Of a stretch of DNA of 64,000 nt, positions 10,826 through 26,271 are shown one piece after another. The stretch lies in the NCBI RefSeq assembly GCF_004022485.1, contig NZ_CP034951.1, positions 2,170,001 through 2,234,000 on the forward strand. Reading direction: 5' to 3'. How positions within the stretch are numbered: the first letter of the stretch is position 1; every line of letters begins with the position of its first letter. The notes below the pieces were generated by a model. That model searched no databases. It saw only the letters and a program-made list of their open reading frames with translations, and was not told where the DNA came from. Made by a program: the position numbers and the translations under genes. The DNA comes from Aequorivita sp. H23M31 (GTDB taxonomy: Bacteria; Bacteroidota; Bacteroidia; Flavobacteriales; Flavobacteriaceae).

Positions 10826-11343
10826 CTATTTCTTTAATGTAATATCATCAACAAATTTATATCCATTATCCATTAAATATTTTATCTCCTTTTCCAAATA
10901 GGAACCTGGTCTAACCTTACTTCTAGAGAGTGATAAAAGCACGACATCTCCCTTTTGCATTGCTTGATTTAAGAAATGCCGATTTAGTGCCCATCTTTCA
11001 TTATTTGATAAAGAACTCCACGCATCTCCTATGTCAAAATAACTTGCTCCTAATTCTTTTGCTTTACTTGTATAACCACCAGTTAAAGGATCAAAATGCC
11101 CAATAAATATGTAGAAAAATTATGATGAGTAACTGGGTCAATGGAGTTCCATCGAGCTATAACTGGGTCATATTGGCGTAAATCCATTTCATAGAGATTC
11201 AACCCCAAAGCTTCCTCGTGCTCGATACCATTAAATTTGAACTTGCGCGCAACGCTGTTCCCGCTGGGCGATACATCTGTATTATACCCTTTGTGTTCAA
11301 GCCCAAAAGGATAATAATTATGCAAAAAATTGAGCATTGGCAC
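10826..11343 (-). pseudogene. Displaced Rhs C-terminal fragment with frameshifted toxin tip (tip5)
   Basis: An rhs core tail (NNYYPFGLEHKGYNTD... to DPVTHHNFSTY) runs from 11343 to about 11110, then leaves frame and stops at 11083. In another frame a toxin-like C-terminus continues from about 11099 to a stop at 10826. It reads HFDPLTGGYTSKAKELGASY, then YFDIGDAWSSLSNNERWALN and a final GSYLEKEIKYLMDNGYKF. From memory, this AW-LS-xER-W...GD...R-GS-E-YL pattern occurs at the end of many bacterial toxin-like proteins. The usual YTAFDNNP...DPSG segment is missing, so a deletion at the FSTY junction both removed sequence and broke the frame. The N-terminal MPMLNFLH is supplied by the adjoining mobile element. 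Confidence 0.75.
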
Positions 11344-11435
11344 AGTTTTGCGCCCGAACGCCAGAGAAAAACTTTCCCGCGATTTTTTATTTATAAGAAC
11401 GTATGGTAAATATAGACATTTTCGTTTTTCACGCT

Positions 11436-11633
11436 TTATCCTTCGGGCGGTATTTTCTTTTTTTCCCCGTCTTTTCCTTTCCTTCCGAACTTTATTTTTG
11501 GCATCCTGGGGAGTACCTTTCCGAAGAAGTCTCCCATCAAGGGTATTCTGTCCTTTTCAACTTTGTTCAAAATGAGTGTCATTCTCAGTATAAAGCCGAA
11601 GATTATTATAAGTGTGATGTGGATGCTGTTCAT
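11436..11633 (-). CDS. Small putative membrane protein, copy A
   Basis: This 65-residue frame begins with a plausible membrane helix (MNSIHITLIIIFGFILRMTL) and ends in a Lys/Gly-rich basic tail (FGRKGKDGEKKKIPPEG). It is the most protein-like frame in the otherwise non-coding end of the element, and it points the same way as the recombinases. I do not recognise it. It could be chance, since the region is short and compositionally odd. Confidence 0.35.
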   Translation of the reverse strand: MNSIHITLIIIFGFILRMTLILNKVEKDRIPLMGDFFGKVLPRMPKIKFGRKGKDGEKKKIPPEG

Positions 11634-11957
11634 TGTTATACGTTTTAAATTGGTTCCTGTTATATCTTATATATGGTTTTGGACAAAAGTTTTGTTTTTG
11701 TTCAAATAAAAAAAGGACATCGGTTTTTTAGGCCTTTCCCACGAAGGTAAAACAGTGGTCTGGGTTAAGTTGTGACAGTAATTTCCGTGAAGCTTTTCTG
11801 ATGGTCAACAACCTGATGGACAGGATTCAATACTGCAAAGCTATGCAAGATTTCTTTCCTGTTAAAAGATGTTAATCCCATTTTGATAAAGGGATTCTTG
11901 ATAAAGATTTCCTTGATTGTTTTTCTAAAATTTGGGTTGATAGGTTTGGAAGATAAA

Positions 11958-11998
11958 GCCCGTCCGTTGGGGTTCGGCTCGAACTTCAGCGGACGGGC
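11958..11998. repeat. Inverted repeat H1, copy A
   Basis: A 9-bp perfect stem, GCCCGTCCG (11958-11966) with CGGACGGGC (11990-11998). A smaller nested hairpin TTCG-gct-CGAA lies at 11973-11983. A repeat copy lies 7425 bp further on. Confidence 0.8.
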
Positions 11999-12050
11999 GT
12001 ATTTGGATTGTCTTCCCGTAAGGATCTGCCACAGGAGTGGACTTTTCCGT

Positions 12051-12107
12051 CCCGATAGGAGTGGAAAGAGAGGCTGGCGGTGCGCTGGACTTTCCACTCC
12101 TATCGGG
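12051..12107. repeat. Inverted repeat H2, 18-bp perfect arms, copy A
   Basis: The arm CCCGATAGGAGTGGAAAG (12051-12068) is exactly complementary to 12090-12107, with a 21-base loop. A partial extra copy of the arm (AGGAGTGGA) lies just before at about 12033-12041. There is no T-run after it, so it does not look like a simple terminator. Confidence 0.85.
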
Positions 12108-12213
12108 ATGGCTGCCCAGCGGCATAGAGCGGCACAAGGCTTGGTTACGCAGTAAATATTAAAGGTTCGTAGTGCGGTGGCAGTAGTGGTGGCAAAGAGC
12201 GCAAAGGCCGAGG

Positions 12214-12302
12214 GGCTATTTTACATAATGGCGTTATAGAACATCTTTGGCGAAGAAGGGATGGTGCGGATGCTTCTATAACAGACCATTATGTAACATA
12301 GC
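12214..12302. repeat. Inverted repeat H3, about 30-bp arms with bulges, copy A
   Basis: Left arm 12214-12245 and right arm 12269-12302 pair over GGCTAT, TTACATAATGG, GTTATAGAA and ATC. They have one mismatch and small unpaired insertions on one side only. A 20-odd-base loop separates them. Long stems with extrahelical bases are the style of folded single-strand recombination sites such as attC, but the integron core consensus is not met. Confidence 0.8.
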
Positions 12303-12477
12303 GTGGGGCGGTTTTTATGGCGGGATTTTTTGTTTAAAGCGTTGGCACGGCTCTTTGCTTTTTTGTTTTTCCAGTTAAAAAAAATAAGAAGGTCAAAAAC
12401 AAAACAAGCAATGTGCCGTATGTGCGTGGGCCTACAAAAATCGTGACATAAAAACCGCAGAAGTGGTGTCGCGCGGA

Positions 12478-12535
12478 ACAAAACAAAACACAGGGGATTT
12501 TTGCCTTTTCGGCAATAATCTGGGTTTTGTTTTGT
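12478..12535 (-). terminator. Long palindrome after ORF6N gene, possible terminator, copy A
   Basis: Perfect 12-bp outer arms (ACAAAACAAAAC at 12478-12489 with its complement at 12524-12535) enclose an inner TTGCC-ttttc-GGCAA hairpin. It starts 7 bases past the ORF6N stop codon. The position fits a terminator for the recombinase operon, and the outer arm ends in GTTTTGTTTTGT on the minus strand. Confidence 0.55.
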
Positions 12536-12542
12536 GGGGATT

Positions 12543-13067
12543 TTATTTTCTACCAGCTTTATAGCCTATTTCCTTTCGGGGCTTTTCTTCCGGTTTTGAT
12601 AATAAATTTTGAAGGACTTTGTAAATCTCGCTGAACTGTTCATTTGTCTGGGATTCCATTTGTCGGATTTTGGCCATTATTTCCTCGTAGTTGTTCGCAA
12701 TTTTCCTTAACTGGACAAATGTCTTTATGATTTGGATGTTCATCTGTACAGCCTTTTCGCTGCTCAAAACACTTGATAGCATTAAGATTCCGTGTTCTGT
12801 AAACACAAAAGGCGCAATCCTGATTCCCATAACATCACGATTGGAAGAAGCGTATTGTGTTCTCCATTCTTCCAATTCTTCTTTGGTAAGCTCAAACATA
12901 AATTCTTCAGGAAAACGATTTATGTTCCGTCTGACTTGTTCTTTCAATCGTCTTGTCTCAACGTCATAAAGGTCTGCCAAATCCCTGTCCAACATTACTT
13001 TCTGCCCTCTTATGACGTATATCTTATTGATGATTACTTCGTCCGGGATGGTTATTTTATTGCTCAT
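12543..13067 (-). CDS. ORF6N domain protein, copy A
   Basis: This protein is 174 residues from the ATG at 13067; a longer frame opens at 13121, but its first 18 residues look like untranslated leader. The N-terminal ORF6N domain (KilA-N superfamily) is clear: IYVIRGQKVMLDRDLADLYD, then TRRLKEQVRRNINRFPEEFM and FVFTEHGILMLSSVL. A C-terminal helical tail follows (about 115-155). ORF6N proteins are phage-type DNA-binding or antirepressor proteins and are common in Bacteroidetes mobile elements. It lies 90 bp downstream of the recombinases. A role in the element's lysogeny-like control is an inference. Confidence 0.85.
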   Translation of the reverse strand: MSNKITIPDEVIINKIYVIRGQKVMLDRDLADLYDVETRRLKEQVRRNINRFPEEFMFELTKEELEEWRTQYASSNRDVMGIRIAPFVFTEHGILMLSSVLSSEKAVQMNIQIIKTFVQLRKIANNYEEIMAKIRQMESQTNEQFSEIYKVLQNLLSKPEEKPRKEIGYKAGRK

Positions 13068-13156
13068 TTCTTGATTGATATTTCGATGCAAATTTAAAAT
13101 TTTTAAAATTGGGTATCGCAATTTGCGACACCCAATTATGACTCTTGTTTTTAAGA

Positions 13157-14047
13157 CTAAACTATTGGATGGAAGTTGTTGACCATTTCGTGAAGGTTCT
13201 CTAAATCGTTCTGTAAATATCTTTCGGTCGAACTTATGTAACGATGTCCAGCCAGATATTGAACTTTTCGCAAGTTATATTGTCCTAACCAATTTGTAAT
13301 TACACTTGCCCTAATCTGCTTTATATTCTCTGCTTTTTGATTGTATTTTTTCAGTTTTTTAAAGATGTGATAGACGATTGAGTTAAAACGTGCATTCGTA
13401 TTAAAAAGCTGTTCGCTATGGTTTTGCAGTTTGTTTTGGATTGTTGGCCGAACTTCGTTCACATATTCCATAAACTCCATTATCTGCCAAGGTTTTAATT
13501 CTAGCTCCCTTGCGTTGCTTCTCCGTCTGCTCGGAACATATATTTTGCCTTTTGAGAGTTGAAGATGTTCTATTTTCAAGTTTCCTAAATCGCTTGTGTT
13601 TAAGCCTTGATAGACCATTAACCCAATAATTACCTTTGCTCTTTTTAAGGTGTATCTGTGATATTCTTCTTGGTATTTGTCGGTCTCAAAACTGTAATAT
13701 AAATCCTCCAGTTCTTCCGCTTCGAGCAGATTATAATTGATGTTTCTCTGTACGCCTTTTATGGTGGTGTTCTCTATCGGGTTATCAACTCTACAGGCTT
13801 CATCCATCAGGTAATCAAAATATATCTTTACGCTCCGCAACCTGTGGTTTACGGTCTTTTTCTTTGTTCCCTTTCGGGTAAGGTATTTTATGTATTTCAG
13901 GCAATTTTTATAATCGATTTCGTTTGCCGTGGTACTATTTCTATTGCACCATTTTATAAAGCTTTGTATTTCTGTAGCGTAAACCTTGATTGTGGTTTTA
14001 CTATAATTCTGCTCTTCCAAAAATTCGCTATATGGTTTCATTTTCAA
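13157..14047 (-). CDS. Tyrosine recombinase-like protein with altered active site (Rec2), copy A
   Basis: This 296-residue protein has an N-terminal SAM-like core-binding domain (about 1-85) and a C-terminal catalytic fold (about 105-296). The nucleophile Tyr277 (SSTERYLQ), His268 (LAGHR) and Arg246 (KQIRAS) are in place. The first catalytic arginine is Asn150 (YQGLNTSDLGNL), and the usual HxxR histidine is Lys243. It may therefore be a structural partner of Rec1 or have lost strand cleavage. Its start lies 20 bp inside the end of Rec1, which indicates translational coupling. Paired integrases of this kind occur in Tn554-like elements. Confidence 0.88.
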   Translation of the reverse strand: MKMKPYSEFLEEQNYSKTTIKVYATEIQSFIKWCNRNSTTANEIDYKNCLKYIKYLTRKGTKKKTVNHRLRSVKIYFDYLMDEACRVDNPIENTTIKGVQRNINYNLLEAEELEDLYYSFETDKYQEEYHRYTLKRAKVIIGLMVYQGLNTSDLGNLKIEHLQLSKGKIYVPSRRRSNARELELKPWQIMEFMEYVNEVRPTIQNKLQNHSEQLFNTNARFNSIVYHIFKKLKKYNQKAENIKQIRASVITNWLGQYNLRKVQYLAGHRYISSTERYLQNDLENLHEMVNNFHPIV

Positions 14048-14963
14048 GTGTTTTAAGTAAGTGTGTGTAGATTTGAGTAGATTCTAAACTACTATGTCCT
14101 AAAAAGGTTTTGATGCTTTCTAATGGTACTTCTCGCTGTAATAAATGTGTAGCTATTGAGTGCCTTAAAATGTGAAGTGTAATATTCTTTTCCATTATAT
14201 TTTTATTGTTGGTAGATGCTACAATAACTTTCAATCGATTTGCAAAACTCATTCCCTGCATTCGTGTTCCGTGATGGTTTATAAACAGAGCTTCGCTTAA
14301 ATTGGCTTGATAAAATTCTGGTCGAGCTTCAAAAATGTAATCTTCCAATATTTCTGCATTCTTTCGGTTAATTGGTACAAACCTTTCTTTGTAGTTTTTA
14401 CCTTTCCTGACAAACACTCTTTCCTTGTCAAAATAGATGTCGCTTAAATCCAAGTGTACCGCTTCATTTCTTCTTAATCCACAACTGTACAAAACGGTCA
14501 AAATGGCTTTATCTCTTAACTTAAATCTACTTTCTGTATGGCTAAATTCTGTGGCTTCAAAGAGTTCCTTAATTTCGTCCTGTGTCAAAATATTTATCTT
14601 TTCTTCAGTTGGATTGGTTTCAGATTTAAGATGAATATTGAAGTCGTTATAGTTGTGGTTCTGCAAGTATTCCTTGAACTTTTTTAAAGCCTGTTGATGT
14701 TTGTTGAGATAACTTTTGCTCAAACTTCCACTTGTTCGTTCATTGGCTCTTTCTTTGAGTTTCCTGTAATAATCCTTTATGGTTTTTGGCGTGATGTCAG
14801 TCAGCTTTTTGATGTTCTGCTTTTCAACATAATAAAAGAACTCTTGTAGATGATTCGGTAATTGATAGACTGTACTTTCTGCATAACCCAAGATGTCCAA
14901 CCATTCTTTGTAATTGGCAACGAACATTTTAAATACCTCATTTTGTAGCTTTAATTTTTTCAC
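14028..14963 (-). CDS. Tyrosine recombinase/integrase (Rec1), copy A
   Basis: This 311-residue XerC/D-like enzyme should cut and join DNA through a 3'-phosphotyrosine intermediate. The N-terminal core-binding domain covers about 1-110. The full catalytic set is visible: Arg164 (SCGLRRNEA), a lysine near 189, His264 and Arg267 (LHILRHSIATHLL), His290 (FLGHSS) and Tyr299 (STQIYTHL). It follows the ATPase by 90 bp and overlaps Rec2 by 20 bp, so the two are made together. It is too short and too divergent from host XerC/D to be the chromosome dimer resolvase, and its setting is the mobile element. Confidence 0.93.
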   Translation of the reverse strand: MKKLKLQNEVFKMFVANYKEWLDILGYAESTVYQLPNHLQEFFYYVEKQNIKKLTDITPKTIKDYYRKLKERANERTSGSLSKSYLNKHQQALKKFKEYLQNHNYNDFNIHLKSETNPTEEKINILTQDEIKELFEATEFSHTESRFKLRDKAILTVLYSCGLRRNEAVHLDLSDIYFDKERVFVRKGKNYKERFVPINRKNAEILEDYIFEARPEFYQANLSEALFINHHGTRMQGMSFANRLKVIVASTNNKNIMEKNITLHILRHSIATHLLQREVPLESIKTFLGHSSLESTQIYTHLLKTLENETI

Positions 14964-15053
14964 TTCGGTATGTGTTTTTTGGGATTCTGTGAACTACTTA
15001 TTTAAGTTGTTGATTTTCAGTTACGTTATTAGTCCATTTTACTGATTGAACTA

Positions 15054-16580
15054 TTATGAACCGTTTGAACTTCTTAACCTATCGATAATGCCCTGCAATA
15101 GGTCTTTTATTTGCTTGTTCGTGGTTTCGTAATCATCATAGTTTACGATTTCATATACATAACCTTTTCGCTTATTTCCTTTGGCTTTCTGTATGAGTTC
15201 AGCTAATTGAAGTTGCAACATATATCGTTTTTGGTTGCTTGGATTTACTCGTAAAGCTCTACGGATTTCAGCGTTTGTAAATGTGGTTTGACTTTCCTTT
15301 TTCAAGTATGCTTTTAGGTTTTCAAAAAACTGTCTGCAAGCTCCATTCAATAAATCACTTTTACGCAATAAAACTTCCTGTATAAGTCCGTTGGCTTCTT
15401 CAATATCCTCAATTGTGGTTTCTATAAATTCTTCGCCTGTTTCCTTGTCGTATTGTTTTTCCCTTTGGTATTGTTTGTAAAATGTAATCGCTTCAATAAA
15501 TTGTAAATAATGTGAGTTGGTTCTACGTGGTTTAAAAACCGATTTGGGTAATTCCAGATATTCAGCAAACGGATTGATAACCTTGATTGGTTTTAATATG
15601 CGTTGCACATTTTGTAATAAAACACGCGATGCGTGTTCTTCATCATCATTTATTTTCCCTGCACTAATCAACCTTTGGTAATCCATTATTTTCTGGTCTT
15701 GTTCTTCGCTTTCATCGATGTACAAAAGGAAGTTTCTATTTGAGTTATCTTCGTAAATACTTTCCTGCGTGGTACAACCTGCAACACTTACAGGACCTTC
15801 AACCGTTAGATGTATGGTTTTAGTTGTTCCTTTGGTGTCTTTATGAACTACCGTTTTTGTAATTCGCTTTTTAGATTGCAGTTCTCGTAATGGATAGAGT
15901 ACACTTTCCGCTCCATCTAAATCCTCAATCAATATTAATTTGTGTTGTAATTCTGTGCGATTGAAGTAGTAAAAAGCGTTTGCAGATAAGACTGTAATTT
16001 CTACTTTATCTTCTTCCGGAATGAGTTCCGATACTTTTGATTGCAAATGTGTTTTGCCAACTCCAGAACTTCCCAAGCTGATGCAATGCAATGGATTATT
16101 TGTTTTCCTTGATGTGAAGATTAAAAACATTGTTTGTCTGTTGTGTTCTTCTCCGATGACTCCAGACTTTCCAATGAGTTCGTTGGTTCGATTTAGTAAA
16201 TTGGGTTTCTTTAAAAATGTAATGGCTTGTTTTTCCTCTGTTCCTGTGAGTTCCTTAAAATAGGGTTGGTGCTGTTTCTCGTATTCTTCAATCAACAAAA
16301 ATCTGTAGTTCTCTAATTCTCTGGTTAAATCTTGTAACGTTCTACGTGCTACACTTGTACCAATTTCCAAGCGTTCTGCAATCTTTCGAGTAAACTTTTC
16401 TATTTGGTTATCGTTGTATAAATCTATTGAGTGCCTTAAAACATTATGTTCTTTTGGTTTTTGGATGGATAGCGTAATCCTTAAACTCTCTAATTTGTTG
16501 AGTTTGATTCCTCCTAAAATGTGGATTTCTAAATGTTTGGTTGTGTATTCGTAGTTGTTTGGATTGGAAGTATTGAGCAT
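15054..16580 (-). CDS. P-loop ATPase of the mobile element, copy A
   Basis: This 508-residue protein has a helical N-terminal region (about 45-110, KIAERLEIGTSVARRTLQDL). A P-loop domain follows with Walker A GSSGVGKT (about 170-177) and Walker B LILIEDLDGAES (about 215-226). The C-terminus (about 430-490) looks like a winged helix (TFTNAEIRRALRVNPSNQKR). From memory this resembles the ATPase half of phage or plasmid primase-helicase proteins in Bacteroidetes, but the CHC2 zinc finger and toprim parts are missing. It heads the recombinase transcription unit and is divergent from the XRE gene. A role in target selection or in replication of an excised circle is an inference. Confidence 0.8.
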   Translation of the reverse strand: MLNTSNPNNYEYTTKHLEIHILGGIKLNKLESLRITLSIQKPKEHNVLRHSIDLYNDNQIEKFTRKIAERLEIGTSVARRTLQDLTRELENYRFLLIEEYEKQHQPYFKELTGTEEKQAITFLKKPNLLNRTNELIGKSGVIGEEHNRQTMFLIFTSRKTNNPLHCISLGSSGVGKTHLQSKVSELIPEEDKVEITVLSANAFYYFNRTELQHKLILIEDLDGAESVLYPLRELQSKKRITKTVVHKDTKGTTKTIHLTVEGPVSVAGCTTQESIYEDNSNRNFLLYIDESEEQDQKIMDYQRLISAGKINDDEEHASRVLLQNVQRILKPIKVINPFAEYLELPKSVFKPRRTNSHYLQFIEAITFYKQYQREKQYDKETGEEFIETTIEDIEEANGLIQEVLLRKSDLLNGACRQFFENLKAYLKKESQTTFTNAEIRRALRVNPSNQKRYMLQLQLAELIQKAKGNKRKGYVYEIVNYDDYETTNKQIKDLLQGIIDRLRSSNGS

Positions 16581-16722
16581 AGTAAAACTATTTTATTCGA
16601 TTTTCGATACTTCAAAAATACAATTATATTTCTTTTATCGAACATTAATAATTTACTATTTCACTAATATTTCATATTTATATCGTTTTTCGCTACTTTT
16701 ATAACTTCTAATACAGGTTTAT
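16581..16722. promoter_or_regulatory. Divergent promoter/operator region between ATPase and XRE genes, copy A
   Basis: This 142-base, very AT-rich spacer holds two near-identical direct repeats of the form TCGwTTTTCGmTACTT, at 16597-16612 and 16683-16698. They are 86 bp apart, one near each gene start. They are good candidates for XRE binding sites that would repress both the recombinase operon and the regulator itself. Confidence 0.5.
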
Positions 16723-17088
16723 ATGAGTTTAGCTGATAACATTAAAAAATTAAGAGAAGATAAAGAGCTTCGCCAAAAAGAAGTTGCTAACGCTCTTGAT
16801 ATTGGTTATTCCAACTACAATAAAATTGAAAATGGTAATCGTGAGATTTCTGTAAAAGAGTTACAGCGACTTGCAGAGTTTTATAATATTACTATTGACC
16901 AAGTGATTAACCTTAATGGTGGTCTGCCCAAAGAAGTTGTTATAGAAGATAAACAAGCTAATGAGCAATTACGTTTGATTTCTGAACTTGATACCGATGA
17001 TAGAGCCATTATCTTTAAGATGATTGATAAAATGCTCACTTCTAAAAAGTTTAAGGATTTCTTTAATAAAAATGTAGCTTCGCTTTAG
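16723..17088 (+). CDS. XRE-family HTH regulator, copy A
   Basis: This 121-residue protein has a Cro/cI-type helix-turn-helix at about residues 6-62 (ELRQKEVANALDIGYSNYNK, then IENGNREISVKEL). A short helical C-terminus ends in KFKDFFNKNVASL. It is the only plus-strand gene of the unit. It diverges from the ATPase and converges on the immunity gene with 49 bp between stops and a shared terminator. Probably it controls the element. Its C-terminal motif recurs in a relic at 28631-28687. Confidence 0.92.
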   Translation: MSLADNIKKLREDKELRQKEVANALDIGYSNYNKIENGNREISVKELQRLAEFYNITIDQVINLNGGLPKEVVIEDKQANEQLRLISELDTDDRAIIFKMIDKMLTSKKFKDFFNKNVASL

Positions 17089-17093
17089 AGCAT

Positions 17094-17120
17094 AAAAAAG
17101 CCGCCACTTGGACGGTTTTT
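17094..17120. terminator. Bidirectional terminator between XRE and immunity genes, copy A
   Basis: AAAAAGCCGCC-actt-GGACGGTTTTT type hairpin with one mismatch, and A and T runs on the two sides. It serves the convergent XRE (+) and imm4 (-) genes. Confidence 0.65.
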
Positions 17121-17137
17121 GGATTCTATAACTTTAC

Positions 17138-17776
17138 TTATTCATTGGCTTCAACGATTAGCTGGTCAATTTCATCATCAGAGAAAGTTAAGTTTTTTAA
17201 TTCTCTATTGTTTTTGATTTTATCCATAACATCATTTTTATATGTAAAATGGATTGCTCCTAAATCATAATCAAAATACATAAACCAGCTCATATTTATA
17301 GGAAACAACAGTACATTACTAATAAAATAATGCTCTATTTCTTCACTTTTTTTTGTAAAAAAATCCTTTAATGAATTATCGCTTTTAAATAGCAAAGGAA
17401 AAGAACTATTTTCTTTATTAATCATTTTCTTTATAAAAAAACTTTTATTGTCAACCATTTCAGAAGCGGTATAACGATCTAATTTTTCAACTAACTCATT
17501 GAACCCTTCTCCCTTTGAAGTATATTCTAAAGTAGTCTTGTCTAATGGTAATTGTAAAAGCAAATACGGTTTCTCGTTTAGAAGCTTAAGTATAGTTATT
17601 AACTTTTCTATATCTACACCTCCAGGAACAATATACTTTATATAATCTGTTGTATATGACTTGTCCTTCATATAATTAAAATCATCCGATTCTAACTTGA
17701 TATCCACTTTTCGTTTCAAGTTTTCTAAAATGACCTCTATAAAGGACAAGTCGTATTCCTTATATTCATCTAACAT
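17138..17776 (-). CDS. Putative immunity protein imm4, copy A
   Basis: This 212-residue acidic protein (many Asp/Glu/Lys) has no signal peptide or membrane segment, so it is probably cytoplasmic. I do not recognise the family. It begins 14 bp after the stop codon of the Rhs tip at 17791, in the usual immunity position. If tip4 acts in the cytoplasm, this protein would bind and block it. The C-terminal half contains FPLLFKSDNSLKDFFTKKSE and a MSWFMYFDYDLGAIHFTY stretch. The function rests on position only. Confidence 0.65.
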   Translation of the reverse strand: MLDEYKEYDLSFIEVILENLKRKVDIKLESDDFNYMKDKSYTTDYIKYIVPGGVDIEKLITILKLLNEKPYLLLQLPLDKTTLEYTSKGEGFNELVEKLDRYTASEMVDNKSFFIKKMINKENSSFPLLFKSDNSLKDFFTKKSEEIEHYFISNVLLFPINMSWFMYFDYDLGAIHFTYKNDVMDKIKNNRELKNLTFSDDEIDQLIVEANE

Positions 17777-17790
17777 AATAAATCCAAGTT

Positions 17791-18768: not shown

Positions 18769-18860
18769 AGTTTTGCGCCCGAACGCCAGAGAAAAACTTT
18801 CCCGCGATTTTTTATTTATAAGAACGTATGGTAAATATAGACATTTTCGTTTTTCACGCT

Positions 18861-19475: not shown

Positions 19476-19532
19476 CCCGATAGGAGTGGAAAGAGAGGCT
19501 GGCGGTGCGCTGGACTTTCCACTCCTATCGGG
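19476..19532. repeat. Inverted repeat H2, copy B
   Basis: Second copy of the 18-bp perfect inverted repeat CCCGATAGGAGTGGAAAG with a 21-base loop. Confidence 0.85.
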
Positions 19533-19638
19533 ATGGCTGCCCAGCGGCATAGAGCGGCACAAGGCTTGGTTACGCAGTAAATATTAAAGGTTCGTAGTGC
19601 GGTGGCAGTAGTGGTGGCAAAGAGCGCAAAGGCCGAGG

Positions 19639-19727
19639 GGCTATTTTACATAATGGCGTTATAGAACATCTTTGGCGAAGAAGGGATGGTGCGGATGCTT
19701 CTATAACAGACCATTATGTAACATAGC
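19639..19727. repeat. Inverted repeat H3, copy B
   Basis: Second copy of the long, bulged inverted repeat built on TTACATAATGG and GTTATAGAA arms. Confidence 0.8.
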
Positions 19728-19967
19728 GTGGGGCGGTTTTTATGGCGGGATTTTTTGTTTAAAGCGTTGGCACGGCTCTTTGCTTTTTTGTTTTTCCAGT
19801 TAAAAAAAATAAGAAGGTCAAAAACAAAACAAGCAATGTGCCGTATGTGCGTGGGCCTACAAAAATCGTGACATAAAAACCGCAGAAGTGGTGTCGCGCG
19901 GAACAAAACAAAACACAGGGGATTTTTGCCTTTTCGGCAATAATCTGGGTTTTGTTTTGTGGGGATT

Positions 19968-20492
19968 TTATTTTCTACCAGCTTTATAGCCTATTTCCTT
20001 TCGGGGCTTTTCTTCCGGTTTTGATAATAAATTTTGAAGGACTTTGTAAATCTCGCTGAACTGTTCATTTGTCTGGGATTCCATTTGTCGGATTTTGGCC
20101 ATTATTTCCTCGTAGTTGTTCGCAATTTTCCTTAACTGGACAAATGTCTTTATGATTTGGATGTTCATCTGTACAGCCTTTTCGCTGCTCAAAACACTTG
20201 ATAGCATTAAGATTCCGTGTTCTGTAAACACAAAAGGCGCAATCCTGATTCCCATAACATCACGATTGGAAGAAGCGTATTGTGTTCTCCATTCTTCCAA
20301 TTCTTCTTTGGTAAGCTCAAACATAAATTCTTCAGGAAAACGATTTATGTTCCGTCTGACTTGTTCTTTCAATCGTCTTGTCTCAACGTCATAAAGGTCT
20401 GCCAAATCCCTGTCCAACATTACTTTCTGCCCTCTTATGACGTATATCTTATTGATGATTACTTCGTCCGGGATGGTTATTTTATTGCTCAT
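19968..20492 (-). CDS. ORF6N domain protein, copy B
   Basis: Identical to the protein at 12543-13067. The start is taken at the ATG at 20492, giving 174 residues, for the same reason: the ORF6N domain begins right after it (KITIPDEVIINKIYVIRGQK). Confidence 0.85.
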   Translation of the reverse strand: MSNKITIPDEVIINKIYVIRGQKVMLDRDLADLYDVETRRLKEQVRRNINRFPEEFMFELTKEELEEWRTQYASSNRDVMGIRIAPFVFTEHGILMLSSVLSSEKAVQMNIQIIKTFVQLRKIANNYEEIMAKIRQMESQTNEQFSEIYKVLQNLLSKPEEKPRKEIGYKAGRK

Positions 20493-20581
20493 TTCTTGAT
20501 TGATATTTCGATGCAAATTTAAAATTTTTAAAATTGGGTATCGCAATTTGCGACACCCAATTATGACTCTTGTTTTTAAGA

Positions 20582-21472
20582 CTAAACTATTGGATGGAAG
20601 TTGTTGACCATTTCGTGAAGGTTCTCTAAATCGTTCTGTAAATATCTTTCGGTCGAACTTATGTAACGATGTCCAGCCAGATATTGAACTTTTCGCAAGT
20701 TATATTGTCCTAACCAATTTGTAATTACACTTGCCCTAATCTGCTTTATATTCTCTGCTTTTTGATTGTATTTTTTCAGTTTTTTAAAGATGTGATAGAC
20801 GATTGAGTTAAAACGTGCATTCGTATTAAAAAGCTGTTCGCTATGGTTTTGCAGTTTGTTTTGGATTGTTGGCCGAACTTCGTTCACATATTCCATAAAC
20901 TCCATTATCTGCCAAGGTTTTAATTCTAGCTCCCTTGCGTTGCTTCTCCGTCTGCTCGGAACATATATTTTGCCTTTTGAGAGTTGAAGATGTTCTATTT
21001 TCAAGTTTCCTAAATCGCTTGTGTTTAAGCCTTGATAGACCATTAACCCAATAATTACCTTTGCTCTTTTTAAGGTGTATCTGTGATATTCTTCTTGGTA
21101 TTTGTCGGTCTCAAAACTGTAATATAAATCCTCCAGTTCTTCCGCTTCGAGCAGATTATAATTGATGTTTCTCTGTACGCCTTTTATGGTGGTGTTCTCT
21201 ATCGGGTTATCAACTCTACAGGCTTCATCCATCAGGTAATCAAAATATATCTTTACGCTCCGCAACCTGTGGTTTACGGTCTTTTTCTTTGTTCCCTTTC
21301 GGGTAAGGTATTTTATGTATTTCAGGCAATTTTTATAATCGATTTCGTTTGCCGTGGTACTATTTCTATTGCACCATTTTATAAAGCTTTGTATTTCTGT
21401 AGCGTAAACCTTGATTGTGGTTTTACTATAATTCTGCTCTTCCAAAAATTCGCTATATGGTTTCATTTTCAA
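20582..21472 (-). CDS. Tyrosine recombinase-like protein with altered active site (Rec2), copy B
   Basis: Identical to 13157-14047, including Asn150 in place of the first catalytic arginine and Lys243 in place of the HxxR histidine. The substitutions are in both copies, so they predate the duplication and are not a one-off sequencing error. It overlaps Rec1 copy B by 20 bp. Confidence 0.88.
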   Translation of the reverse strand: MKMKPYSEFLEEQNYSKTTIKVYATEIQSFIKWCNRNSTTANEIDYKNCLKYIKYLTRKGTKKKTVNHRLRSVKIYFDYLMDEACRVDNPIENTTIKGVQRNINYNLLEAEELEDLYYSFETDKYQEEYHRYTLKRAKVIIGLMVYQGLNTSDLGNLKIEHLQLSKGKIYVPSRRRSNARELELKPWQIMEFMEYVNEVRPTIQNKLQNHSEQLFNTNARFNSIVYHIFKKLKKYNQKAENIKQIRASVITNWLGQYNLRKVQYLAGHRYISSTERYLQNDLENLHEMVNNFHPIV

Positions 21473-22388
21473 GTGTTTTAAGTAAGTGTGTGTAGATTTG
21501 AGTAGATTCTAAACTACTATGTCCTAAAAAGGTTTTGATGCTTTCTAATGGTACTTCTCGCTGTAATAAATGTGTAGCTATTGAGTGCCTTAAAATGTGA
21601 AGTGTAATATTCTTTTCCATTATATTTTTATTGTTGGTAGATGCTACAATAACTTTCAATCGATTTGCAAAACTCATTCCCTGCATTCGTGTTCCGTGAT
21701 GGTTTATAAACAGAGCTTCGCTTAAATTGGCTTGATAAAATTCTGGTCGAGCTTCAAAAATGTAATCTTCCAATATTTCTGCATTCTTTCGGTTAATTGG
21801 TACAAACCTTTCTTTGTAGTTTTTACCTTTCCTGACAAACACTCTTTCCTTGTCAAAATAGATGTCGCTTAAATCCAAGTGTACCGCTTCATTTCTTCTT
21901 AATCCACAACTGTACAAAACGGTCAAAATGGCTTTATCTCTTAACTTAAATCTACTTTCTGTATGGCTAAATTCTGTGGCTTCAAAGAGTTCCTTAATTT
22001 CGTCCTGTGTCAAAATATTTATCTTTTCTTCAGTTGGATTGGTTTCAGATTTAAGATGAATATTGAAGTCGTTATAGTTGTGGTTCTGCAAGTATTCCTT
22101 GAACTTTTTTAAAGCCTGTTGATGTTTGTTGAGATAACTTTTGCTCAAACTTCCACTTGTTCGTTCATTGGCTCTTTCTTTGAGTTTCCTGTAATAATCC
22201 TTTATGGTTTTTGGCGTGATGTCAGTCAGCTTTTTGATGTTCTGCTTTTCAACATAATAAAAGAACTCTTGTAGATGATTCGGTAATTGATAGACTGTAC
22301 TTTCTGCATAACCCAAGATGTCCAACCATTCTTTGTAATTGGCAACGAACATTTTAAATACCTCATTTTGTAGCTTTAATTTTTTCAC
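21453..22388 (-). CDS. Tyrosine recombinase/integrase (Rec1), copy B
   Basis: Identical to 14028-14963, with the complete Arg-Lys-His-Arg-His-Tyr set (Arg164, His264, Arg267, His290, Tyr299). With two intact copies in direct orientation, the array encodes its own possible excision enzyme twice. Confidence 0.93.
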   Translation of the reverse strand: MKKLKLQNEVFKMFVANYKEWLDILGYAESTVYQLPNHLQEFFYYVEKQNIKKLTDITPKTIKDYYRKLKERANERTSGSLSKSYLNKHQQALKKFKEYLQNHNYNDFNIHLKSETNPTEEKINILTQDEIKELFEATEFSHTESRFKLRDKAILTVLYSCGLRRNEAVHLDLSDIYFDKERVFVRKGKNYKERFVPINRKNAEILEDYIFEARPEFYQANLSEALFINHHGTRMQGMSFANRLKVIVASTNNKNIMEKNITLHILRHSIATHLLQREVPLESIKTFLGHSSLESTQIYTHLLKTLENETI

Positions 22389-22478
22389 TTCGGTATGTGT
22401 TTTTTGGGATTCTGTGAACTACTTATTTAAGTTGTTGATTTTCAGTTACGTTATTAGTCCATTTTACTGATTGAACTA

Positions 22479-24005
22479 TTATGAACCGTTTGAACTTCTT
22501 AACCTATCGATAATGCCCTGCAATAGGTCTTTTATTTGCTTGTTCGTGGTTTCGTAATCATCATAGTTTACGATTTCATATACATAACCTTTTCGCTTAT
22601 TTCCTTTGGCTTTCTGTATGAGTTCAGCTAATTGAAGTTGCAACATATATCGTTTTTGGTTGCTTGGATTTACTCGTAAAGCTCTACGGATTTCAGCGTT
22701 TGTAAATGTGGTTTGACTTTCCTTTTTCAAGTATGCTTTTAGGTTTTCAAAAAACTGTCTGCAAGCTCCATTCAATAAATCACTTTTACGCAATAAAACT
22801 TCCTGTATAAGTCCGTTGGCTTCTTCAATATCCTCAATTGTGGTTTCTATAAATTCTTCGCCTGTTTCCTTGTCGTATTGTTTTTCCCTTTGGTATTGTT
22901 TGTAAAATGTAATCGCTTCAATAAATTGTAAATAATGTGAGTTGGTTCTACGTGGTTTAAAAACCGATTTGGGTAATTCCAGATATTCAGCAAACGGATT
23001 GATAACCTTGATTGGTTTTAATATGCGTTGCACATTTTGTAATAAAACACGCGATGCGTGTTCTTCATCATCATTTATTTTCCCTGCACTAATCAACCTT
23101 TGGTAATCCATTATTTTCTGGTCTTGTTCTTCGCTTTCATCGATGTACAAAAGGAAGTTTCTATTTGAGTTATCTTCGTAAATACTTTCCTGCGTGGTAC
23201 AACCTGCAACACTTACAGGACCTTCAACCGTTAGATGTATGGTTTTAGTTGTTCCTTTGGTGTCTTTATGAACTACCGTTTTTGTAATTCGCTTTTTAGA
23301 TTGCAGTTCTCGTAATGGATAGAGTACACTTTCCGCTCCATCTAAATCCTCAATCAATATTAATTTGTGTTGTAATTCTGTGCGATTGAAGTAGTAAAAA
23401 GCGTTTGCAGATAAGACTGTAATTTCTACTTTATCTTCTTCCGGAATGAGTTCCGATACTTTTGATTGCAAATGTGTTTTGCCAACTCCAGAACTTCCCA
23501 AGCTGATGCAATGCAATGGATTATTTGTTTTCCTTGATGTGAAGATTAAAAACATTGTTTGTCTGTTGTGTTCTTCTCCGATGACTCCAGACTTTCCAAT
23601 GAGTTCGTTGGTTCGATTTAGTAAATTGGGTTTCTTTAAAAATGTAATGGCTTGTTTTTCCTCTGTTCCTGTGAGTTCCTTAAAATAGGGTTGGTGCTGT
23701 TTCTCGTATTCTTCAATCAACAAAAATCTGTAGTTCTCTAATTCTCTGGTTAAATCTTGTAACGTTCTACGTGCTACACTTGTACCAATTTCCAAGCGTT
23801 CTGCAATCTTTCGAGTAAACTTTTCTATTTGGTTATCGTTGTATAAATCTATTGAGTGCCTTAAAACATTATGTTCTTTTGGTTTTTGGATGGATAGCGT
23901 AATCCTTAAACTCTCTAATTTGTTGAGTTTGATTCCTCCTAAAATGTGGATTTCTAAATGTTTGGTTGTGTATTCGTAGTTGTTTGGATTGGAAGTATTG
24001 AGCAT
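22479..24005 (-). CDS. P-loop ATPase of the mobile element, copy B
   Basis: Identical to 15054-16580: a 508-residue protein with Walker A GSSGVGKT and Walker B LILIEDLDG. It is first in the recombinase transcription unit of copy B. Confidence 0.8.
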   Translation of the reverse strand: MLNTSNPNNYEYTTKHLEIHILGGIKLNKLESLRITLSIQKPKEHNVLRHSIDLYNDNQIEKFTRKIAERLEIGTSVARRTLQDLTRELENYRFLLIEEYEKQHQPYFKELTGTEEKQAITFLKKPNLLNRTNELIGKSGVIGEEHNRQTMFLIFTSRKTNNPLHCISLGSSGVGKTHLQSKVSELIPEEDKVEITVLSANAFYYFNRTELQHKLILIEDLDGAESVLYPLRELQSKKRITKTVVHKDTKGTTKTIHLTVEGPVSVAGCTTQESIYEDNSNRNFLLYIDESEEQDQKIMDYQRLISAGKINDDEEHASRVLLQNVQRILKPIKVINPFAEYLELPKSVFKPRRTNSHYLQFIEAITFYKQYQREKQYDKETGEEFIETTIEDIEEANGLIQEVLLRKSDLLNGACRQFFENLKAYLKKESQTTFTNAEIRRALRVNPSNQKRYMLQLQLAELIQKAKGNKRKGYVYEIVNYDDYETTNKQIKDLLQGIIDRLRSSNGS

Positions 24006-24147
24006 AGTAAAACTATTTTATTCGATTTTCGATACTTCAAAAATACAATTATATTTCTTTTATCGAACATTAATAATTTACTATTTCACTAATATTTCAT
24101 ATTTATATCGTTTTTCGCTACTTTTATAACTTCTAATACAGGTTTAT
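24006..24147. promoter_or_regulatory. Divergent promoter/operator region, copy B
   Basis: Second copy of the 142-base spacer with TCGwTTTTCGmTACTT repeats, here at 24022-24037 and 24108-24123. Confidence 0.5.
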
Positions 24148-24513
24148 ATGAGTTTAGCTGATAACATTAAAAAATTAAGAGAAGATAAAGAGCTTCGCCA
24201 AAAAGAAGTTGCTAACGCTCTTGATATTGGTTATTCCAACTACAATAAAATTGAAAATGGTAATCGTGAGATTTCTGTAAAAGAGTTACAGCGACTTGCA
24301 GAGTTTTATAATATTACTATTGACCAAGTGATTAACCTTAATGGTGGTCTGCCCAAAGAAGTTGTTATAGAAGATAAACAAGCTAATGAGCAATTACGTT
24401 TGATTTCTGAACTTGATACCGATGATAGAGCCATTATCTTTAAGATGATTGATAAAATGCTCACTTCTAAAAAGTTTAAGGATTTCTTTAATAAAAATGT
24501 AGCTTCGCTTTAG
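24148..24513 (+). CDS. XRE-family HTH regulator, copy B
   Basis: Identical to 16723-17088. It again converges on an imm4 gene, with a terminator hairpin between the stops. Confidence 0.92.
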   Translation: MSLADNIKKLREDKELRQKEVANALDIGYSNYNKIENGNREISVKELQRLAEFYNITIDQVINLNGGLPKEVVIEDKQANEQLRLISELDTDDRAIIFKMIDKMLTSKKFKDFFNKNVASL

Positions 24514-24518
24514 AGCAT

Positions 24519-24545
24519 AAAAAAGCCGCCACTTGGACGGTTTTT
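24519..24545. terminator. Bidirectional terminator between XRE and immunity genes, copy B
   Basis: Second copy of the GCCGCC/GGACGG hairpin with flanking A and T runs, between convergent XRE and imm4. Confidence 0.65.
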
Positions 24546-24562
24546 GGATTCTATAACTTTAC

Positions 24563-25201
24563 TTATTCATTGGCTTCAACGATTAGCTGGTCAATTTCAT
24601 CATCAGAGAAAGTTAAGTTTTTTAATTCTCTATTGTTTTTGATTTTATCCATAACATCATTTTTATATGTAAAATGGATTGCTCCTAAATCATAATCAAA
24701 ATACATAAACCAGCTCATATTTATAGGAAACAACAGTACATTACTAATAAAATAATGCTCTATTTCTTCACTTTTTTTTGTAAAAAAATCCTTTAATGAA
24801 TTATCGCTTTTAAATAGCAAAGGAAAAGAACTATTTTCTTTATTAATCATTTTCTTTATAAAAAAACTTTTATTGTCAACCATTTCAGAAGCGGTATAAC
24901 GATCTAATTTTTCAACTAACTCATTGAACCCTTCTCCCTTTGAAGTATATTCTAAAGTAGTCTTGTCTAATGGTAATTGTAAAAGCAAATACGGTTTCTC
25001 GTTTAGAAGCTTAAGTATAGTTATTAACTTTTCTATATCTACACCTCCAGGAACAATATACTTTATATAATCTGTTGTATATGACTTGTCCTTCATATAA
25101 TTAAAATCATCCGATTCTAACTTGATATCCACTTTTCGTTTCAAGTTTTCTAAAATGACCTCTATAAAGGACAAGTCGTATTCCTTATATTCATCTAACA
25201 T
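24563..25201 (-). CDS. Putative immunity protein imm4, copy B
   Basis: Identical to 17138-17776. It follows tip4 copy B by 14 bp and probably protects against the tip encoded just upstream. Confidence 0.65.
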   Translation of the reverse strand: MLDEYKEYDLSFIEVILENLKRKVDIKLESDDFNYMKDKSYTTDYIKYIVPGGVDIEKLITILKLLNEKPYLLLQLPLDKTTLEYTSKGEGFNELVEKLDRYTASEMVDNKSFFIKKMINKENSSFPLLFKSDNSLKDFFTKKSEEIEHYFISNVLLFPINMSWFMYFDYDLGAIHFTYKNDVMDKIKNNRELKNLTFSDDEIDQLIVEANE

Positions 25202-25215
25202 AATAAATCCAAGTT

Positions 25216-26271
25216 TTATTTAAAGAAAATATCTACATTTTTCCCTTCATAAGCTTTCGGTAAAGTAAAAGTATCAAACCCTTTCTTGCCGGATTGAGAT
25301 GCTCTAAAAATTATTGTTTCACCATTTTTAGTCAACTTTATCACATTGCCCGCTTTCTGATAATTCCACCCATCTTTCACTAACTGTACAAAATGTTGAC
25401 CTGCACCATATGCACCTCCTTCGAGAACAGCTTTAAATTTCCCACCACCAGAAGTTAATTTGAAGGCGTCAGAAGCTTTTACCGCATATTTTAATAAATC
25501 CTTACTAGATTTTATATCCCTTAAATATTTTAGATACTTTGGCAATTTCAATACAACTCCAAGTCCTCCAGCAGAAATATACTCTATTGAGCCCGAACTA
25601 CCAATAAATTTAGCCATATATCTGCCTGTTGGATACCCTTCTTCATCCACAGAATACCAAACTCCATCTGGTCCTTTCCATTTCCTGCCGTTTGCATCTC
25701 CCATTAGCTTACCAAACCACCCTTGTTTTTCCGACACTTGAATATCTCCAAAAGGATTCGGATCTTGTTGTTCTTGACTACTTTCATTACAATCGTCACA
25801 TTGTGCCGTGTTTCCATTCCCATCAGAAAAAGTGCCATTTCCAGTATTTGTCCAAGTAGTTCCACTTTCTGACCTATCAAACAAATCTCTCAAGAAACTT
25901 TCACTATCGGCACCGGTTGGGTCTGCCCAAAAAATAGGATTATTATCAAAAGCAGTATATGTAGATTGTGAAAAATGTGTAACAGGATCAATAGTAGTAA
26001 ATCTACCTATCGCTGGGTCATAATTCCGAACATCCATCTCATAGATGTTTAAACCCAAACTTTCTTCTAGTTCCTGTCCATTAAATTTGAACTTGCGCGC
26101 AACGCTGTTCCCGCTGGGCGATACATCTGTATTATACCCTTTGTGTTCAAGCCCAAAAGGATAATAATTATGCTCCTCAATATTTCGGTCCTTAGCTCGA
26201 TACTGCCATCTCCGTCGGTATCGGAATAGGACAGCCTGATGTTCCCCAAGTGGTCCTTGTACTATTTCCAT
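25216..26271 (-). CDS. Displaced Rhs C-terminal fragment with tip4, copy B
   Basis: The tip and core tail are identical to tip4 copy A from the NYYPFG motif onward. Upstream of that motif this copy joins a longer but damaged rhs core (26174-26538) instead of element DNA. The first ~30 residues of the 351-residue frame are rhs DNA read out of frame, so the annotated start at 26271 is arbitrary. The true rhs frame is interrupted by a single-base loss near 26185 (EILRS read instead of EIIEEHN). This was probably the tip of a longer rhs gene before it decayed. Confidence 0.75.
   Translation of the reverse strand: MEIVQGPLGEHQAVLFRYRRRWQYRAKDRNIEEHNYYPFGLEHKGYNTDVSPSGNSVARKFKFNGQELEESLGLNIYEMDVRNYDPAIGRFTTIDPVTHFSQSTYTAFDNNPIFWADPTGADSESFLRDLFDRSESGTTWTNTGNGTFSDGNGNTAQCDDCNESSQEQQDPNPFGDIQVSEKQGWFGKLMGDANGRKWKGPDGVWYSVDEEGYPTGRYMAKFIGSSGSIEYISAGGLGVVLKLPKYLKYLRDIKSSKDLLKYAVKASDAFKLTSGGGKFKAVLEGGAYGAGQHFVQLVKDGWNYQKAGNVIKLTKNGETIIFRASQSGKKGFDTFTLPKAYEGKNVDIFFK

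Follow-up and report, generated by a model that had tools for sequence, protein, structure and literature searches.

A tandemly repeated 7425-bp unit in Aequorivita sp. H23M31, very probably an integrative element that inserts within rhs coding sequence and carries a toxin tip

By what means are the toxin tips of rhs genes exchanged, and how did two identical units, each with its own rhs core end and tip, come to lie one behind the other in Aequorivita sp. H23M31? Comparison of the analysed stretch of DNA (64,000 nucleotides, hereafter the window) with itself indicated that positions 11228-18748 match, without a mismatch over 7521 bases (7521 of 7521), the stretch that starts 7425 bp further along the numbering. 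A match of this length at this offset places the end of the repeat at 26173, so that the extent of 11228-26173 given by a first-pass annotation of the locus was exact. The second copy occupies 18653-26173; that is, the array consists of two tandem 7425-bp units followed by a third rhs core of about 96 bp. The genome (one contig, 3,682,614 bp) encodes two full copies of the unit and, beyond these, the third core (about 95-96 bp), a 93-bp core piece at 27655-27747 and two weaker core pieces with 73% and 85% identity. Within the window the repeat at the unit boundaries is 96 bp long, which is as far as the attachment core can be narrowed from the window alone. Positions 8000-30000 contain no inverted repeat pairs of at least 40 bp, and the unit thus does not have the form of a transposon with long terminal inverted repeats. 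The parts of the locus, in window coordinates, are as follows.

31306-34914, minus strand: full-length rhs gene (1202 aa) with its own tip, head of the array
26170-26536, minus strand: truncated rhs fragment, the target
26153-26169, minus strand: attL-like junction of rhs fragment and element core, AATTATTATCC followed by TTTTGG (NYYPFG codons)
18734-26158, minus strand: integrated unit, upstream copy, 7425 bp between successive crossover points, their position taken by analogy from related loci L014, L015, L019, L037 and L038
18728-18744, minus strand: element-element (attP-like) junction, ending in TTTTTTGCATAATTATTATCC followed by TTTTGG
11309-18733, minus strand: integrated unit, downstream copy, identical to the upstream copy by self-comparison
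11303-11319, minus strand: attR-like junction of element end and displaced rhs core/tip
10826-11308, minus strand: displaced (orphan) rhs core end with tip 5, the reading frame interrupted around 11083-11100
10401-10817, minus strand: putative immunity gene of the displaced tip, from its position behind that tip

The displaced fifth tip begins at the third core (11319), in agreement with its earlier description as an orphan whose rhs tail starts at the element end. Its reading frame is broken just beyond the core, the ORF at 11083-11343 stopping early, and its putative immunity protein has no relative in 298 other genomes of the family. A search of 28 genomes of the genus found no empty site; the displaced tip region turned up in this genome only, plus a 75-bp core piece in one other. 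Since the two units lie inside a truncated rhs fragment, their tip is not joined to the full-length rhs gene here.

Each unit carries the gene set that had been claimed for it, i.e. rhs core and tip, a gene in the immunity position, an XRE regulator, an ATPase, two recombinases and an ORF6N protein.

25216-26271, minus strand: rhs core end and toxin tip, upstream copy, 351-aa ORF (TIGR03696)
24563-25201, minus strand: putative immunity gene, upstream copy, 212 aa, from its position behind the tip
24148-24513, plus strand: XRE-type regulator, upstream copy, identical to the scanned downstream copy
22479-24005, minus strand: primase-helicase-type ATPase, upstream copy, 508 aa
21453-22388, minus strand: Rec2, XerD-like tyrosine recombinase, upstream copy, identical to the downstream copy
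20582-21472, minus strand: Rec1, second tyrosine recombinase, upstream copy, identical to the downstream copy
19968-20546, minus strand: ORF6N-domain protein, upstream copy, identical to the downstream copy
17791-18768, minus strand: rhs core end and toxin tip, downstream copy (TIGR03696)
17138-17776, minus strand: putative immunity gene, downstream copy, from its position behind the tip
16723-17088, plus strand: XRE-type regulator, downstream copy, divergent (PF01381)
15054-16580, minus strand: ATPase, downstream copy, 508 aa, a homologue of CHC2/Toprim primase-type proteins over their C-terminal half
14028-14963, minus strand: Rec2, downstream copy, 311 aa (PF00589, 2e-38), catalytic R, H, R, H and Y kept
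13157-14047, minus strand: Rec1, downstream copy, 296 aa (PF00589, 9e-11), without the first catalytic arginine
12543-13121, minus strand: ORF6N-domain protein, downstream copy (PF10543)

The order of Rhs-associated core (TIGR03696), variable tip and small gene corresponds to the layout of an Rhs polymorphic toxin cassette. A domain scan of the tip pair found no toxin or immunity domain, and the putative immunity protein of the downstream copy, identical to the upstream one, had no Pfam or NCBIfam match. The gene earlier called simply an ATPase can be described more closely as a counterpart of the C-terminal half of CHC2/Toprim proteins. Rec2 keeps the tyrosine-recombinase catalytic residues R, H, R, H and Y (alignment and PF00589): across the family R164 is present in 65 of 65 sequences, H264 and R267 in 64, and H290 and Y299 in 63, the remainder being gaps. 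The first catalytic arginine is absent from Rec1 in 60 of 61 members, and the ORF6N protein was detected in some family members only. Among the unit proteins no conjugation gene or relaxase was found; the ORF6N protein gave weak MobA/MobC-like scores that stayed below threshold. A Gamma-mobile-trio island was rejected as a classification, Rec2 scoring 42.8 bits with NF040693 (GmtY) where the cut-off is 340.

Is the company of recombinase block and rhs core a chance event of this one genome? In a wider set of 118 blocks in 96 loci, a profile search placed an rhs core upstream of 67 of the 80 assessable blocks and downstream of 46 of 58, so that by the profile used 13/80 blocks lack an upstream and 12/58 a downstream rhs. 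Where close relatives have a block with a left flank of 3.5 kb or more, the upstream core is present in 50 of 51 cases. The check originally proposed, namely whether the block lies beside rhs in other genomes and with a different tip each time, thus came out positive on its first half, and the link to rhs is not incidental. It did so on the second half as well: 72 distinct tips were counted among 89 blocks, and where two blocks have ATPases of 80% identity or more (152 pairs), their tips resemble each other at all in only 4 pairs. An uninterrupted reading frame joins the first block's tip to 1.5 kb or more of rhs in 31 of 42 assessable loci. Moreover, one 7869-bp element is present, with a single mismatch, in two rhs genes of the same genome whose left flanks differ. 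Identical tandem copies in short-read assemblies are possible assembler loops.

The tip swap at rhs proposed for the unit is therefore upheld by the block's position beside rhs, the varied tips and the E. coli before/after pairs described below, in the form of site-specific recombination. One alternative is that RecA-dependent homologous recombination between rhs cores moves the tips, the block being a passenger that landed once behind rhs and was later duplicated. Homology among rhs cores is long, with 96 bp identical at three places here, and general homologous recombination, with hypothetical circles, was proposed for tip exchange in enterobacterial rhs (Jackson 2009, PMC2935791, in the available part of its text); the window flanks alone would fit either process, and in L043, L045 and L065 the repeat extends to the left beyond NYYPFG. 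These three, however, end at other fixed motifs, and in many species the element ends stop at fixed rhs codon motifs. In L014, L015, L037 and L038 the tandem copies differ at the base preceding TTTGG and agree from TTTGG onward; in L019 the crossover is bounded on both sides to CCCTTTGGC, and in the mixed array L038/L025 to CCCTTTGG. The interval is thus 8-9 bp from two arrays and about 6 bp from all arrays combined (TTTGG in the NYYPFG codons). In a set of 30 short contigs, five start and three stop at TTTGG. Furthermore, the target motif tracks the recombinase. Six target motifs, all within the rhs core and before the tip, can be distinguished; in the Rec2 tree a single branch separates each of four of them from the rest, likewise HLGN after correction of one mislabelled row, and NYYPFG is clustered. 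In these comparisons element lineages differ in the conserved rhs-core motif that they use, the motif following the recombinase. Together with the 15-bp core of an E. coli relative (see below), this makes the homologous route highly improbable. The crossover does fall in the rhs core, as the first-pass annotation had it, but at a few bases of a fixed codon motif and not anywhere in the 96-bp homology; the 96 bp are common to these rhs copies but are not the recombination site.

Fixed ends with a short direct-repeat attachment core were found in flavobacterial relatives and also in the E. coli relative, which resides in cdiA. Both occupied and empty sites are known for the latter. E. coli ZYB39 contains two 7782-bp units, one base different, with GTTGTTGAGAATAAC at all three boundaries; the second cdiA of C10 represents the site without insertion, overlapping either flank by exactly 15 bp. 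In SMN013SH2 an uninterrupted cdiA includes the tip that is displaced in C10. On sequence evidence, then, this distant relative provides natural before/after pairs, with a 15-bp core corresponding to the VENN codons, and the same design also serves CdiA and, apparently, some other toxin genes. The E. coli-type relative has one recombinase, and its ATPase is 28% identical; it is therefore akin in design rather than a close homologue. Two small closed circular plasmid records from enterobacterial relatives (11,289 and 8,758 bp) are composed of such units; for the element in the window no circle was seen. No relatives of the element were found in viral contigs or phages. That the tandem copies are an assembly artefact deserves consideration, given that identical 7-kb repeats are hard to assemble and loops may be written twice, but an element-element junction is required in the reads either way, and copies also occur in records labelled complete (two plasmids and ZYB39 with its unlike copies), making this explanation very unlikely.

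We conclude that the 7425-bp unit is very probably an integrative element that attaches within the coding sequence of its target, a toxin-delivery gene. It would bring the remainder of that gene from the attachment site onward (core end and toxin tip) and the putative immunity gene, followed by its mobility genes. Rec2, with Rec1, would recombine the circular form into a chromosomal rhs gene at its NYYPFG codons, the attP of the circle comprising the element end, the NYYPFG codons and the element's own core and tip. A single crossover would join the new tip in frame and bring in its immunity gene, and the old tip with its immunity gene would stay behind the element as an orphan. The XRE protein is a probable repressor of the block, and the circle is probably replicated by the primase-helicase-type ATPase; excision, catalysis by both recombinases, and toxicity and immunity of the tip pair are likewise inferred. 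Repeated integration of the same or another unit at one spot would generate tandem and mixed arrays, and in the window the unit, present twice, would have entered an rhs fragment rather than an intact rhs gene. An ordinary integrative element landing in rhs and restoring the gene's 3′ end, in the manner of some phages at host genes, would have the same architecture; tip and immunity gene would then serve only to keep it in place, as an addiction module, and carried immunity would penalise loss. This is compatible with the same mechanism and differs in who benefits; six landing motifs before the tip and constant tip turnover nevertheless suggest that the tip is more than a repair patch, and we regard the addiction reading as possible but doubtful.

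Several known systems resemble such a tip-carrying element in part. Integron gene cassettes insert serially at a single site, newest first, and are not known to carry a recombinase of their own; here the recombinase is on board and insertion is at a coding motif within the delivery gene. An integron was rejected, Rec2 lying far under the integrase cut-off (TIGR02249, 90.5 bits versus 265) and every unit carrying recombinases. Prophages such as e14 in icd attach within a coding sequence and supply the gene's 3′ end, whereas the end supplied here brings another toxin, accompanied by its immunity gene. In shufflons a tyrosine recombinase alters the C-terminus of a surface protein by inversion within a fixed local set, whereas here new ends are acquired from outside. 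The rhs model of Jackson 2009 (PMC2935791) already includes tip gain from a circle by one crossover, the old tip downstream and orphan arrays, but in the available text has no dedicated enzyme; here recombinases accompany each tip and the crossover is site-specific. Orphan cdiA-CT/cdiI pairs in tandem arrays, with integrase and transposase genes between them, led to the suggestion of transposition and site-specific recombination for CDI orphans (Ruhe et al. 2016, PMC4927057), the portion available describing no element, attachment core or link between VENN codons and recombinase. Several polyimmunity loci adjoin XerC/D-type recombinase genes that might aid accumulation of immunity genes (Zhang et al. 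2012, PMC3482391); the text as available concerns immunity genes and not tip carriage or insertion, and describes no attachment site. The rhs arrays of Ornithobacterium hominis (PMC6421346, PMC13183296) are a flavobacterial likeness with displaced tips, one of them common to another genus, and no recombinase carrier appears in the accessible parts of those reports.

More broadly, we consider it fairly likely that a single widespread family of integrative elements that replicate drives the tip exchange of polymorphic toxins in at least two phyla (Bacteroidota and Pseudomonadota). At the DNA level, the conserved motifs directly before the variable tips (VENN in CdiA; in Rhs NYYPFG, among other core motifs) would then serve as attachment sites for recombinases that accompany each tip. 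Arrays of orphan tips would record successive insertions, and the tips would be the cargo that a self-moving weapon cassette transports. If tips have a dedicated carrier whose attachment sites are defined, the question of their exchange in Rhs and CdiA becomes directly testable; such a carrier also offers a reason for motif conservation beside tips and predicts gene-tip compatibility; the stretch between attachment motif and recombinase block could serve to find tip-immunity pairs in genomes.

Two further sequence features lie toward the element end.

19640-19727, minus strand: long imperfect palindrome, upstream copy, identical copy
18820-18827, minus strand: ACGTTCTT motif, upstream copy, identical copy
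12215-12302, minus strand: long imperfect palindrome in the non-coding end region, downstream copy (DNA fold z = -7.5)
11395-11402, minus strand: ACGTTCTT motif near the element end, downstream copy, from sequence

The palindrome is conserved, about 0.9 kb before the element end, and related stems were found elsewhere; considered as an attC-like folded recombination site, it is not where the crossover falls. ACGTTCTT is present in 40 of 53 element ends and in 119 of 11,800 random windows (1% background); by the patterns used, the end arm is missing from 19/53 ends and ACGTTCTT from 13/53. Some related blocks (L095, L102, L111 and L115) lie amid other mobile-element genes.

The two units in the window, which the first-pass annotation had described as 7425-bp units, are identical to the base (7521 of 7521 positions are equal between 11228-18748 and the stretch 7425 bp further on), and the genome, a single contig of 3.68 Mb, contains two full copies. 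On the - strand, the direction of rhs, each unit comprises an rhs-associated core end with its tip, a small gene in the immunity position and a divergent XRE gene, followed by genes for a 508-aa ATPase, Rec2 (XerD-like tyrosine recombinase), Rec1 (tyrosine recombinase) and an ORF6N protein. The tip would be toxic, the small gene would confer immunity and the XRE protein would act as a repressor. The last ~1.2 kb of the unit contain no clear gene and terminate at the next rhs core. The units belong to a longer array, made up of a full-length rhs gene, orphan cores with tips, the two units and a final displaced core with its tip, the reading frame of which is interrupted shortly past the core:

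40812-43202, malic enzyme gene, one border of the rhs region
31306-34914, full-length rhs gene, head of the array
29158-30264, orphan core with a JAB-like toxin tip (PF15659)
26792-28069, orphan core with a DUF6883 tip
starting at 11319, displaced last core and tip (tip 5 of the first-pass annotation), the third core
9382-9963, ruvA, the other border of the rhs region
2088-9377, gene for a 2429-aa protein next after ruvA, presumably SprA-like

The rhs region between the malic enzyme gene and ruvA may have been inserted into a neighbourhood that is otherwise conserved. No empty site was found for the window locus, empty sites being rare because sampling was of one genome per species.

The search with the ATPase covered 84,980 species, each represented by a single genome, and the best 80 of 125 matches were kept, corresponding to 69 loci that span 19 genera according to the record titles, nearly all of them Flavobacteriaceae as far as they could be placed. 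Within the family, an ATPase profile matched 27 of 397 genomes, and within the phylum 14 of 395, the own genome being counted in both cases. In the close-relative set, i.e. the 88 blocks in the 69 loci (best 80 of 125 matches) and in four further loci, an rhs core was located upstream on the same strand for 50 of the 51 blocks with at least 3.5 kb of left flank, and downstream for 35 of the 40 blocks with at least 5 kb of right flank. Forty more regions were fetched from the profile matches and from a further search, and the wide set comprised, after removal of duplicates, 118 blocks in 96 loci. The proposal that the block sits beside rhs genes was borne out in this wide set, with an rhs core upstream of 67 of 80 and downstream of 46 of 58 assessable blocks. 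These counts exclude L001-L012, 12 loci that are short or come from the own genome, as well as 14 loci whose contig and length marked them as repeat retrievals of loci in the set. Four near-identical pairs (L013/L017, L022/L023, L032/L036 and L066/L067) were retained, so that the blocks are not all independent. Several blocks without an rhs core belong to other toxin-like genes. At one such locus (L097, 112-19688), which also holds a Mutator-family transposase, two tandem blocks with a complete primase follow a toxin-like gene for a secreted protein other than Rhs, together with the small partner of that gene; therefore, rhs genes are not the only ones to show this design. At another (L100), the gene upstream of the block encodes a 1458-aa RHS-repeat protein of another type (PF05593). 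In L095, L102, L111 and L115, the blocks lie amid other mobile-element genes, and the rhs core is found on the downstream side only.

As the first-pass annotation had supposed, the tips differ while the block is kept: 89 blocks carry 72 distinct tips, which fall into 48 single-linkage families. When non-redundant blocks with an ATPase identity of 80% or more were paired, tip similarity could be detected in 4 of 152 pairs (1 of 12 pairs at 90% identity or more, 3 of 140 pairs at 80-90%). Furthermore, the tip is exchanged in frame: of the 42 loci that could be assessed, 31 have a single open frame that joins the first block's tip to 1.5 kb or more of upstream sequence reaching to the core end. 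The window locus is among the 11 without such a frame; a further 26 loci could not be assessed, and 28 showed no rhs upstream, in many cases because too little flanking sequence was present.

Elements of the relatives terminate in an A/T run plus CGCATA (or a variant thereof), immediately before the codons of the NYYPFG motif of the rhs core, whereas rhs genes proper have coding sequence at the position of the A/T run and CGCATA. The sequence ACGTTCTT was present near the element end in 40 of 53 cases, compared to 119 of 11,800 equally sized random windows. The arm formed by the A/T run and CGCATA was matched in 34 of 53 ends and in 179 of 5900 random windows by a regular expression that overlooks several ends where the arm is visible by eye, and reliance was therefore placed on the ends themselves. 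In tandem arrays, the left flank of the first copy is the host gene and that of the second copy is the element end. The last difference between the two flanks therefore gives the left bound of the crossover. In four loci (L014, L015, L037 and L038), the copies differ at the base immediately before TTTGG and are identical from TTTGG on. The crossover is bounded on both sides in L019, whose last copy diverges from the displaced core after CCCTTTGGC, and in a mixed array on one contig (L038/L025), where differing units follow the same element end, CCCTTTGG. Left bounds were looser for L021, L046, L058, L061 and L070, none of them contradicting this point. Moreover, out of 30 short contigs, 5 start and 3 stop exactly at TTTGG, as expected where alternative junctions coexist. 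Because the flanks in the window agree over 96 bp, analogy is the only means of placing the crossover point of its own units.

In 13 of 74 sequences, tandem copies are identical without interruption over the DNA fetched. Two or more blocks within 10 kb were seen in 21 of the 96 loci, 58 of which have room for such an arrangement. Simple tandem duplication was rejected as a complete explanation, given boundaries and an architecture that recur across many species and a crossover confined to a few bases, and site-specific insertion, with displacement of the former tip, is the reading retained here.

Besides NYYPFG, element ends were found at the YDxNGN, YDALNRI, TGNYVYE and HLGN motifs and at the FAFxINY stretch of the rhs core. 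The landing motifs map to positions ~559-820 of the rhs profile, ahead of the variable tip, and from its landing motif onward the unit supplies the remainder of the gene. In the Rec2 tree (86 rows, of which 7 were classed by hand from contig ends, 29 have no class and 3 are outside the named classes), the TGNY (4 rows), DxNGN (3), YDALNR (2) and GINY (2) targets each occupy one side of a branch. So does HLGN (L042 and L069) once L014 is reclassed, the target class having been taken from the first rhs-profile match, by which L014 was wrongly assigned to HLGN although its true end is NYYPFG. The NYYPFG target (40 rows) requires 4 changes, compared to 14.9 by shuffling. Hence the landing site follows the recombinase, with the reservation that four of the groups are small.

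Spread between genes is evident from the sequences. A 7869-bp element is present, with one mismatch, in two rhs genes of one genome with differing left flanks (L066 and L067, the latter on a contig that stops just past the element), and a 7331-bp stretch with differing right flanks is shared by two assemblies (L022 and L023). The clearest case of movement is that of a distant relative in E. coli. A query made of the primase and XerC from an Enterobacter plasmid matched 59 of 5426 E. coli genomes, and in 4 of these the match extended over 80% or more. In these four genomes, cdiA ends in a tip and a small gene, followed by XRE, a CHC2 primase, XerC, a DinJ/RelE pair and then a second, headless C-terminus; GXU-23-25-310 differs in that the tip is carried by an orphan behind cdiA and not by cdiA itself. 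The tip displaced in genomes C10 and C11 was found in 44 genomes, in 35 of them at 80% of the query or more. Among the 25 matches listed, all 23 besides C10 and C11 share their first base, which lies 307 bases into the query; 22 of the 23 carry a cdiA annotation. One of them, genome SMN013SH2, has a cdiA that continues across the site, and its exact match with the right side of C10 starts at TGTTGAGAATAAC. Genome ZYB39 carries two 7782-bp units, one base apart, with GTTGTTGAGAATAAC at three boundaries. The second cdiA of C10 is the uninterrupted site and overlaps both flanks by exactly 15 bases, GTTGTTGAGAATAAC. These shared bases encode V-V-E-N-N, the VENN motif at which CdiA toxin ends begin. 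Several orphan CdiA ends located further along these E. coli arrays (loci L126, L127 and L129) also have the VVENN codons as their exact starting point, including ends that no longer have a recombinase block.

Two circular records agree with the model's prediction, an excised form being a candidate reading for both. The Lonsdalea populi record (L124) is an 11,289-bp circular plasmid with two head-to-tail units, in one of which the primase is truncated and the recombinase absent. Their tips are colicin-DNase-like and a DNA/RNA non-specific endonuclease, and the same short Rhs core codons precede both (one recognised by eye, the other by a sub-threshold TIGR03696 match). The second record (L138, labelled Shigella flexneri) is an 8,758-bp circle with one Rhs core (TIGR03696, 100 bits) and an ADP-ribosyltransferase-like tip (PF15633), followed by a small gene, SymE, XRE, primase and XerC; it additionally contains an IS element. 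In two Bacteroidota plasmids, a full rhs gene is followed by tandem units that show no difference over the fetched sequence. The same gene order recurs after or close to other large toxin-type genes in plasmid records of Janthinobacterium and Paraburkholderia, a Providencia plasmid record shows a similar order without an evident toxin name, and those of Caballeronia and Leptospira have too few annotated genes to judge. A known plasmid was rejected as the identity of the unit, a PLSDB search with the ATPase alone as query having returned 27 records with a best identity of 37.5%, and so was a phage or satellite, the ATPase having no match in phages or viral contigs.

The ATPase aligns with the C-terminal half of 827-1031-aa proteins bearing CHC2 zinc finger and Toprim domains. 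This match makes it probable that the ATPase has a primase-helicase ancestor and functions in replicating a free form, presumably the excised circle. In Rec2, the tested catalytic residues are kept in every member without gaps. In Rec1, R246, H268 and Y277 are kept in 61 of 61 members, and position 150, where the alignment places the first catalytic arginine, is an arginine in only 1 of the 61, from a unit in L025. Judging from these residues, Rec1, kept beside an intact Rec2, may be a fixed non-cutting partner, in which case Rec2 would be the protein that cuts.

A limited literature search returned, in titles and the beginnings of abstracts, no recombinase-bearing carrier of rhs or CDI tips, and the system can be called undescribed so far only weakly, above all as regards the VENN motif. 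Recombinase genes and toxin-immunity arrays have already been linked in general terms in passages of two papers (PMC4927057, PMC3482391).

Finally, the end region of each unit in the window contains a potential fold:

12215-12302 and 19640-19727, long imperfect palindrome (fold z = -7.5 versus shuffles)

Related stems in other loci keep TTACATAA and TTATAA, and the bases between the kept stem parts change jointly on both sides (e.g. AAAAC/GTTTT, AATAG/CTATT). A strong stem of some kind was present in 60 of 100 end regions, compared to 4 of 47 random windows, the latter often shorter. The palindrome may function as an origin, in recombination or as a transcript structure.
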